DNA of 42,755 nt. Source: Clostridia bacterium (lineage in GTDB: Bacteria > Bacillota > Clostridia > Monoglobales > Firm-18). Both the position numbers and the translations under genes were made by a program. Shown here in pieces: positions 6,721 through 25,309 of this stretch; position 1 is the first letter of the stretch; each line of letters begins with the position of its first letter. The notes beneath the pieces are model-generated. The model searched no databases. It was not told the origin of the DNA and worked only from the letters and a program-made list of their open reading frames with translations. Location of the stretch: contig JAFQJA010000021.1 in assembly GCA_017397315.1 (NCBI GenBank), forward strand, positions 1 to 42,755, in the 5' to 3' direction.

Positions 6721-6860
6721 CGGCGTCTTCGCATAGGGATAAAGATTTTTCGTTAATATAAAGAATAAAAATCCGGTAATACTGTCGTATTTCCGGATTT
6801 TTTTGCAATATTAGCGGAAAAGGTCATCCCAAAACCGATTTTCCCTATATGAAGACGCTG
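6721..6860. repeat. Split copy of the GGCGTCTTC palindromic repeat
   Basis: The arm CGGCGTCTTCGCATAGGGA (6721-6739) is repeated inverted at 6842-6860 with 16 of 19 positions matching. The arms enclose about 100 bases that contain the kinase terminator. The same arm pair, directly facing across a 7-base loop, occurs at 22517-22543 and 32202-32228. It fills most of the gap between two convergent genes. Confidence 0.7.
6766..6805. terminator. Terminator between PfkB kinase and reductase genes
   Basis: The arms AATCCGGTAATAC and GTATTTCCGGATT pair with one mismatch around a 4-base loop. An A run precedes and a T run follows, so it can act in both directions between the convergent genes. Confidence 0.8.
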
Positions 6861-7723: not shown

Positions 7724-7791
7724 AAAATGACAAGCCGAAATACACCAAAATTACGCGGTTTAAGGCGTGGTTCGGATAATTCCTGTCACCC
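7724..7791 (-). repeat. 68-bp copy of the mobile-element end, in the reductase leader
   Basis: This segment matches 24439-24506 at 62 of 68 positions. On the minus strand it begins GGGTGACAG next to a TA, the same terminal sequence as the left end of the 24.2-24.5 kb element. On that strand three helices can nest: TGACA/TGTCA, CCGAA/TTCGG and ACGC/GCGT. Five of the six differences between the copies fall outside these helices. No matching opposite end is visible nearby, so it is a solo end or remnant. Confidence 0.75.
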
Positions 7792-7796
7792 TAAAT

Positions 7797-22820: not shown

Positions 22821-22821
<1 letters not shown>
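22561..22821 (-). CDS. atpC: F1F0 ATP synthase subunit epsilon, short form
   Basis: Central-stalk subunit of F1 that sits on gamma and the c ring. The 86-residue chain covers only the N-terminal beta-sandwich (VITTPDGNLFEG, GTEGELAVMAHHTPFV, SGILSVTLENVALISG). The usual 45-50 residue C-terminal two-helix domain, which inhibits ATP hydrolysis in many bacteria, is missing. The stop is followed directly by the terminator, and no leftover coding sequence lies beyond it. The start overlaps the atpD stop as TAATG. Short epsilons are known in other lineages, so this is likely a real loss rather than an error. Confidence 0.92.
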
Positions 22822-24230
<1,409 letters not shown>

Positions 24231-24233
24231 TTA

Positions 24234-24506
24234 GGGTGACAGAAGCTGTCCGAACCTCGATTTTCAAAGGTTAATTTTTGTCTCTGCCACATTAAAATAC
24301 TCGGTAATCCGTCAGGATTACCTGCGTTTTTGCCTTGCATAGTCATAAAATTTCCTCTTTGAAAATTCTTCGACCTTAAATCGATGGAATTTCGAGAGGA
24401 TTTTGGTGCGGAAGATACAGCAAGGCTGACACCTTGCAAAAATGACAAGCCGAAATACACCGAAATTACGCTGTTTAAGGCGTGGTTCGGACAGTTCCTG
24501 TCGACC
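24234..24506 (-). mobile_element. MITE-like element between atpG and atpD
   Basis: A 273-bp segment flanked by TA on both sides (24232-24233 and 24507-24508). Its ends are inverted repeats: the first 25 bases from the left TA agree with the complement of the last 25 at 21 positions (shared core CTGTCCGAACC). It contains internal hairpins and no gene for a transposase. A 68-bp relative of its right end lies at 7724-7791. TA flanks, terminal repeats and small size fit a non-autonomous element of Tc1/mariner or IS630 type. It makes the atpG-atpD gap about 290 bases where other gaps in the operon are under 20. Confidence 0.75.
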
Positions 24507-25309
24507 TATATACCGCTTCCGGCTACTATTTCAGTAATCTCCTGAGTAATGGCACCTTGTCTTGCACGGTTGTACTCAAGTGTAAGATTATCTATCATTT
24601 CTCCTGCATTCTTTTCAGCATTATCCATAGCAAAGCGTCTTGCCACAACTTCGCATGTGAAACTTTCTCTTACTGTCTCCAGAATTTTAGACGCTACATA
24701 TTCTTCCACTACAGATTCCAGTATGCTTTTTTCGTCAGGTTCAAATATTATATCAGATTTTGATTTTACCTCCGTCTTATTAAGAGGCAAAATCCACAAT
24801 ATTTCGGGTTCCTGCACCATCATAGACTTGTATCTGGTGTAAACGATACCTACTTTTTCATACTTGCCATCTTTAAAGGCATTGCAAAGTTTTTGTGCAA
24901 TCTCCATAGCGTTTCCGTAAGAAAAGCCCTCTGCCTTAATTAAATCTCCGCCAAACCTTTCGCATGCCCTTTTACCTACAGAAATGATTTCTGTATAGGG
25001 AACCGTTTGGGTCAACTTAAAAACATTAGTGTTAAAGCCTCCCGCAAGACCTCTGTCCCCTGCGACGGTTACAAGACATATTTTGCCTTGTTCACCCTTG
25101 TTCATATAGGGACTTCTTTCGCATACTTTTGAACAGCAAAGCATCTCAATTGTAGATTCTATTGATTTCGAATACTCTCTTCCCCTTTGCATTGACATCG
25201 TTGCACCGCGTATTTTTGCAGATGCCACAAGTCCCATTGCTTTCGTCAGGTGCAAAGTGGAATTTATGCTCTTTATTCGGTTCTTTAAACTTTTAATATC
25301 TACGCCCAC
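24506..25309 (-). CDS. atpG: F1F0 ATP synthase subunit gamma
   Basis: Rotor shaft of F1, 267 residues. The N-terminal helix (VDIKSLKNRIKSINSTLHLT) and the C-terminal helix with NAGEMIDNLTLEYNRARQGA, followed by the short ITQEITEIVAGSGI end, are both complete. Length is slightly below the usual 280-290. The start is GTG, 4 bases after the atpA stop. The stop TAG is built from the TA flank plus the first G of the inserted repeat element, so the coding end may have been altered slightly by the insertion. Confidence 0.95.
   Translation of the reverse strand: MGVDIKSLKNRIKSINSTLHLTKAMGLVASAKIRGATMSMQRGREYSKSIESTIEMLCCSKVCERSPYMNKGEQGKICLVTVAGDRGLAGGFNTNVFKLTQTVPYTEIISVGKRACERFGGDLIKAEGFSYGNAMEIAQKLCNAFKDGKYEKVGIVYTRYKSMMVQEPEILWILPLNKTEVKSKSDIIFEPDEKSILESVVEEYVASKILETVRESFTCEVVARRFAMDNAEKNAGEMIDNLTLEYNRARQGAITQEITEIVAGSGI

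Follow-up and report, generated by a model that had tools for sequence, protein, structure and literature searches.

A TA-flanked foldback element in the ATP synthase operon belongs to a Clostridia-wide family with a conserved fold and free terminal sequences

The window analysed comprises positions 1 to 42,755 of contig JAFQJA010000021.1 of a Clostridia bacterium (assembly GCA_017397315.1). It contains an ATP synthase operon in which a short element lies between atpG and atpD. The minus strand of the element is the strand that is read through from atpG to atpD, and the features of this region, given in the direction of transcription, are as follows.

24506-25309, minus strand: atpG; the stop codon is now TAG (24508-24506) and must have been TAA before the insertion
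24232-24508, minus strand: the whole element from TA to TA, 277 bp, with 273 bp between the TAs; 300 bits with the covariance model on the minus strand
24484-24508, minus strand: terminal inverted repeat at the atpG side, one arm of the terminal stem P1, including the duplicated TA at 24507-24508
24370-24482 (ends approximate), minus strand: arm A of a three-way junction, from RNAalifold and covariation
24259-24365 (ends approximate), minus strand: arm B of the three-way junction, from RNAalifold and covariation
24232-24256, minus strand: terminal inverted repeat at the atpD side, the other arm of P1, including the duplicated TA at 24232-24233
24227-24231, minus strand: Shine-Dalgarno sequence AGGAG of atpD, directly adjoining the element
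22821-24218, minus strand: atpD, the downstream gene of the operon, with orthologues of 97-98% identity in the sister species G001 and G002

A preliminary description of this DNA had reported a MITE-like segment here, and its coordinates, its TA flanks and the 273-bp body proved correct to the base. The 25-bp element ends (TAGGGTGACAGAAGCTGTCCGAACC and TAGGTCGACAGGAACTGTCCGAACC) are identical at 21 of 25 positions, exactly as it had stated. It was also right that internal hairpins are present (GCAAGGTGTCAGCCTTGC at 24420-24437 in arm A, GGTAATCCTGACGGATTACC at 24303-24322 in arm B, the terminator-like strand being the opposite of the latter) and that the segment contains no transposase. The location between atpG and atpD holds as well, with the refinement that the right-hand TA also belongs to the atpG stop codon. 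As the other end abuts the Shine-Dalgarno sequence of atpD, the element does not occupy a free gap. None of 200 dinucleotide shuffles folded as well as the element (z-scores of -7.5 and -8.8 for the two strands). These z-scores on both strands, together with the recurrence of the element at three unrelated sites in the same genome, indicate that its fold and its ends are not due to chance.

The new atpG stop codon TAG consists of TA and the first G of the element, and the C-terminus ...AGSGI is unchanged. The same C-terminus is found in both sister species, and it reads ...GSGL in G035, a representative of a different genus (AtpD 89% identical) which has an empty site (GGAAGCGGCTTATAAAGGAGG...ATG). 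The junction must have read GGT ATA TAA GGAGACG... prior to insertion, with TAA being the atpG stop codon and TAAGGAG carrying the Shine-Dalgarno sequence of atpD. Because the TA was duplicated within the TAA stop codon, the atpG stop was rebuilt as TAG and TAAGGAG stayed whole on the atpD side. Judged from the sequence, the insertion is harmless by position, as the atpG protein is the same and the atpD Shine-Dalgarno sequence is intact; the latter is predicted to be unpaired to the same extent (0.73) in the filled and in the empty site.

The insertion is common to the window's own genome (G000) and to sister species G001, with copies that are 92% identical. In sister species G002, just a 27-bp scar of the element (AGTTAACCATTGAAAATCGAGGTTCGG) is found between two TAs (L043, G002:C160:2583-2612), and this scar, in which both TA ends are kept, is a deletion product. 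Since the insertion is shared by G000 and G001, scarred in G002 and missing in G035, the event is placed in the ancestor of the genus, and the element is dispensable at this site. At L078 (G001:C1), atpD has the start codon ATT instead of ATG after an intact Shine-Dalgarno sequence, which is either a rare start codon or an assembly error.

The draft assembly to which the window belongs (917 kb, 27 contigs, 84% complete) carries four full copies, which are 93-94% identical, as well as several fragments, and no two of them have the same flanks. BLAST gave 23 matches in G001 and 11 in G002, and at least 20 full copies exist in the genus. For 16 copies, both flanks were joined and the resulting sequence was sought in the three genomes of the genus. 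Contiguous empty matches were obtained for 11 sites, with TA occurring once when the site is empty and twice when it is filled, and no target bases were lost at the clear ones. Examples (5' to 3') are L011, filled gtaagt-TA[element]TA-AGGAGTG and empty gtgagt-TA-AGGAGTG; L091, filled ctatat-TTA[..]TA-AAGGGG and empty ctatat-CTA-AAGGGG; and L080, filled aataaga-TA[..]TA-TGGAGTG and empty aataaga-TA-GGGAGTG. The element inserts at TA, duplicates the TA, is present in multiple copies and has recently been mobile in this genus. The preliminary description had made its MITE-like reading depend on many TA-flanked copies and on relatives with an empty site. Both were found, the former by the copy search and the latter in the 11 filled/empty pairs and at the atpG-atpD site itself with its empty (G035) and scarred (G002) versions, and they support that reading; the segment is neither single-copy nor kept by all relatives without an empty allele.

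Two further members of the family are present in the window.

7724-7793, plus strand: remnant of a second copy of the focal subfamily, limited to a truncated right end (70 bp at 91% identity) with a perfect terminal inverted repeat at 7769-7793
6721-6860 (ends approximate), plus strand: single-arm relative with a different terminal repeat (GGCGTCTTCGCATAGGG ... CCCTATATGAAGACGC); covariance-model match at 6734-6832, arm B only

The fragment at 7724-7793 is situated upstream of a short-chain-dehydrogenase-like gene that is read on the minus strand. The relative at 6721-6860, a member of the wider family with ends of the CGGCGTCTTCGCATAGGG class, is found just past a gene end, and further copies of this class occur in G000:C24 and on several contigs of G001 and G002.

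Distant BLAST matches and a scan with the core pattern led to elements in metagenome-assembled genomes of ruminant-gut Clostridia (RGIG, RUG, SIG and SUG assemblies). Their interior is common while their ends differ (e.g. TAACCGAAAGAGAGTAATCCGAACC, TAGCCTGATATTAGCTATCCGAACC, TAAGCATTGGGGAGTCGAACCC and TAGGCATACGGAAATCGAAC). TA is always outermost. With few exceptions these elements are about 273-282 bp long, and there are also versions with a single arm (about 146-223 nt). A covariance model built from 24 elements of this wider family has matches in 27 of 51 genomes of the order (12 of 20 genera) and, in a class sample for which few candidates per genome were scored, in at least 71 of 391 genomes (44 of 223 genera). 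Plasmid and phage collections contained no match to the element, and the scan of viral contigs with the core pattern returned none. Neither the window nor eight loci gave an Rfam match above the gathering score when a permissive threshold was used. The open-access literature that was searched, with most subscription journals outside its scope, contains no description of the family, and a 2024 review of prokaryotic MITEs does not mention clostridia (PMC10969869).

A cluster of four matches on G046:C14 was considered as a larger element and rejected, since just ordinary genes lie in between, and arm-only matches, which might have been halves of a long element, turned out to be located at contig ends. 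In genus g14, there are paired terminal repeats only 71-84 bp apart (G050:C12:12651-12734; G050:C16:26445-26528; G039:C43:4106-4178; G039:C92:6650-6720), which are either minimal elements or products of internal deletions.

In an alignment of 103 copies, 94.4% of the pair cells are paired and 55 of 60 pairs have changed on both sides. The covariation score of this alignment, which is inflated because the alignment was fitted to the structure, is 0.558, compared to 0.151 when shuffled and about 0.1 when slid. With 24 sequences treated by MAFFT and RNAalifold, both-side changes are already found in 36 of 60 pairs. The terminal repeats were compared at positions 3-20 for 36 clusters (<80% identity). 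Within an element, the left and right repeats have 90% of these positions in common, and for repeats taken from different elements the value is 41%. End position 6 has only 0.07 bits and yet the two ends agree in every case; positions 9, 14 and 16 have 0.09-0.14 bits, with own-end agreement of 94, 75 and 69%, respectively. In the interior, unpaired motifs (0.83 bits) and paired positions (0.99 bits) are nearly equally conserved. The three-way-junction fold of about 277 nt is conserved under heavy compensatory change, while the sequence of the terminal repeats is free.

In a fold that is selected as RNA, GU pairs are expected to be common and AC mismatches, which are GU on the other strand, to be rare. 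The size-matched SRP RNA (~267 nt) from the same genomes, used as control, follows this expectation, with GU in 19.9% of the cells and a GU:AC ratio of 403:3. The corresponding values for the element are 2.8% and 173:92, and four pairs account for about half of its GU cells. Pairing changes between subfamilies are mostly direct changes from one Watson-Crick pair to another. These Watson-Crick changes and the near strand-symmetry of GU and AC, unlike SRP RNA, show that the fold is maintained at the level of DNA and not of RNA. Either the DNA has to be folded for movement, or replication corrects imperfect palindromes, or both. The young subfamily shows 80 one-sided changes. It also shows 11 compensated double changes, four of which are the same change, where about 3.4 would be expected, so that some concerted correction is likely. 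In L081 and L206, the two terminal repeats carry the same substitution at mirror positions within a young subfamily (GGGTGACAG to GGTTGACAG and TAGGGTGA to TAGAGTGA, respectively), which is a hint at concerted palindrome correction.

Fifteen copies of the focal subfamily are found directly before a Shine-Dalgarno sequence and start codon, and all 15 have the same end toward the gene, with none reversed; by eye, L079 and L094 have the same placement at a gene start. The reverse strand contains a strong terminator-like hairpin (GGTAATCC-GTCA-GGATTACC) followed by TGCGTTTTTG, while the hairpin on the sense strand is weaker. The strand with the weaker terminator is thus transcribed in 15 of the 15 gene-start copies (p=6e-5). 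With all subfamilies pooled, a trend is seen (43 of 61, p=0.002), and in an independent set from outside the focal subfamily the count is 11 of 17, which is not significant (p=0.33); we therefore restrict the claim on orientation to the focal subfamily and reject a general rule that every copy has its terminator-poor strand transcribed. L077 is the only antisense copy among those between codirectional genes, and a perfect 12/12 promoter is found between L077 and the gene that follows. In G001, sigma-A-like promoters end 4-7 bp before L075, L079 and L080, and the elements are located between the sigma-A -10 box and the Shine-Dalgarno sequence. In these three cases, the start of transcription is expected only a few bases away from the element end, and the element makes up nearly the whole 5' leader. 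The preliminary description had remarked that the element in the atp operon must be transcribed through. This gains indirect support, as the strand that is transcribed has few terminator-like hairpins and the Shine-Dalgarno sequence is predicted to be as accessible as without the element.

We consider it fairly probable that the element is a non-autonomous, MITE-like member of a foldback family that is spread over the Clostridia and has no description in the literature searched, that it is moved in trans by an enzyme acting on folded DNA, and that it is a tolerated passenger of the atp operon. Such an enzyme would need folded DNA, consisting of the terminal stem and the conserved internal motifs, and would cut at TA; a transposase that reads a fixed terminal sequence would then not be required. 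The element landed in the TAA stop codon of atpG, and the TA duplication provided atpG with TAG and left TAAGGAG to atpD. In the read-through orientation, the polymerase would pass and the RNA would fold on itself without hiding the atpD start. A more tentative part of this reading, which we regard as possible, is that the ends are recognised not by their sequence but by pairing into the folded junction, by a structure-reading enzyme that makes 2-bp TA duplications. If so, one pair of repeats could be exchanged completely for another, provided that the two change in concert and that TA remains at the outer ends. The recognition of folded DNA is an inference, as the search turned up no mobilising enzyme. 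Template switching during replication (palindrome correction) could also keep the arms complementary, and if the 71-84 bp elements of genus g14 are mobile and not deletion products, the internal arms are dispensable.

The family may instead consist of ordinary MITEs, in which a separate TA-specific DDE transposase (IS630/Tc1-mariner type) reads the terminal repeats of each subfamily and moves it, with the interior being a passenger and complementarity being upheld by replication errors that correct quasi-palindromes. The TA duplication, the terminal repeats of ~25 bp and the size all fit, an inner CGAAC motif recurs in many ends, and the excess of both-end changes within the young subfamily is in agreement with such correction. 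Nevertheless, we judge this to be rather unlikely. The IS630 transposase domain (DDE_3, PF13358) was found in 0 of the 51 draft genomes of the order, 27 of which are carriers, while controls were positive in 3 of 14. The assembled sequence of genera g1 and g14 contains no larger element that has these ends: a search of these drafts by the terminal-repeat pattern returned element ends only, with no pair being 0.5-3.5 kb apart. As draft assemblies are broken at these repeats, a missing helper or autonomous element is weak evidence. Also, interior arms and unpaired motifs are conserved throughout the class and the end sequence is not, which is the reverse of the usual MITE pattern.

That a HUH (Y1) transposase moves the element as single-stranded hairpin DNA, as is the case for REP or IS200/IS605 elements, would agree with a fold that is conserved as DNA. 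We hold this to be very unlikely. None of the three species of the genus has Y1_Tnp, and it is also missing from G005 despite 13 full copies among the matches listed. Carriage of the element is not significantly associated with Y1 (PF01797), which is present in 13 of 27 carriers and in 7 of 24 non-carriers. The TA duplication counts against this reading too, since the HUH mechanism is not expected to duplicate 2 bp of its target.

It is highly improbable that the element is a structured RNA, i.e. a cis-regulatory leader or a retro-transposed RNA with a fold selected as RNA. The strong conserved fold would fit, as would the 5' leader position just before the Shine-Dalgarno sequence in many copies, extending from the -10 box to the Shine-Dalgarno sequence in three. 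Against this, the strand-specific GU tolerance of Rfam structured RNAs is lacking (GU:AC 173:92), GU and AC pairs being rare and nearly symmetric as opposed to SRP RNA, and one-sided changes after insertion are 32 to GU and 23 to AC. Furthermore, Rfam gave no match, the neighbouring genes are unrelated and orthologous sites are often empty. Reverse transcriptase (PF00078), considered as a helper, shows no association with carriage of the element, being present in 5 of 27 carriers and in 7 of 24 non-carriers. A reverse-transcriptase gene is present in the window's own genome (G000:C17:9169-9717) and was not found in the two sister species. A translated leader, in which a sense-strand frame with Shine-Dalgarno sequence and ATG (MTMQGKNAGNPDGLPSILMWQRQKLTFENRG...) leaves the element in the direction of atpD and would couple translation to that of the following gene, is scarcely credible even though the frame at 24203-24460 is open and a similar one is open in several relatives. 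It was rejected because the start codon is not conserved (AAG or ACG in 7 of 20 copies, and also mutated in the G001 orthologue of the focal copy) and indels in the hairpin loop break the frame in more distant members.

With respect to known categories, the element is short and non-coding (277 bp, without a conserved ORF or a transposase), has terminal inverted repeats (21/25 in the focal copy, 17-22/22 in nearly all full-length copies), shows target-site duplication with empty alleles (TA, 11 filled/empty pairs) and has many dispersed copies. An autonomous, transposase-supplying element with common ends was not found in the draft genomes of genera g1 and g14. This is not decisive for the broad MITE class, as the partner is likewise not known for ERIC and Correia elements. 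An IS630/Tc1-mariner derivation of the RUP type would require, besides the TA duplication that is seen, an IS630 transposase with matching ends, and none was found in carriers. Broadly defined, the family thus qualifies as a MITE family that lacks only a known autonomous partner, and it falls outside the IS630-derived definition as tested.

The pneumococcal repeat unit RUP (107 bp) is likewise non-autonomous and intergenic, duplicates TA, resides in a Firmicute host and has terminal repeats that are paired in one tight fold (PMC2229807, PMC3049150). RUP shares its terminal repeats with IS630-Spn1 (PMC2229807, PMC3049150), whereas no IS630-type transposase was found for the Clostridia family, which also differs by its length of ~277, its two internal arms and its free terminal sequence. 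ERIC/IRU elements of enterobacteria (127 bp) are also imperfect palindromes with TA termini and without a known transposase, and are co-transcribed in operons with an orientation-dependent effect (PMC2229807). The Clostridia family occurs in another class of hosts, its elements are about twice as large and have long terminal repeats, and its subfamilies, found throughout the class, differ in their ends; the distinction from ERIC/IRU is made by length (277 versus 127 bp). Correia/NEMIS elements of Neisseria (107-155 bp) resemble it in having 24-bp terminal repeats, TA, a gene-adjoining position and long-stem transcripts, but they have a fixed terminal sequence, are confined to one genus, are smaller and have no described three-way-junction fold (PMC2229807). 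The pneumococcal SPRITE is similarly small with a terminator-like hairpin, but lacks a terminal-repeat stem (PMC3049150), and in the focal subfamily the terminator-like strand is not transcribed into the gene.

Folded DNA rather than a fixed sequence is kept in REP/BIME elements with RAYT and in the attC sites of integrons. The likeness of the Clostridia family to these exists only if folded DNA is indeed what is recognised, and the family differs from them in the TA duplication, in having no HUH association and in having no integron context.

The single insertion into the atp operon is an ordinary tolerated passenger, and the family with its free ends and conserved DNA fold is the interesting part. 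An essential operon accepts a 275-bp insertion when the target is the TA in TAAGGAG, because the stop codon is restored along with the ribosome-binding site; the orientation tolerated is the one in which the strand without the terminator-like hairpin is read. Rfam has no entry for the family. Repeats of this kind interrupt draft assemblies and can be mistaken for regulatory RNAs. Bacterial genomes commonly contain small palindromic repeats, most of which move by a mechanism that has yet to be explained. This family provides a handle: dozens of its subfamilies have unrelated ends and agree in length and in DNA fold, there are many pairs of empty and filled sites, and the carriers are without IS630-type transposases. 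With these features, one can test whether a transposon end that is defined by its sequence can be replaced by the shape of the DNA.
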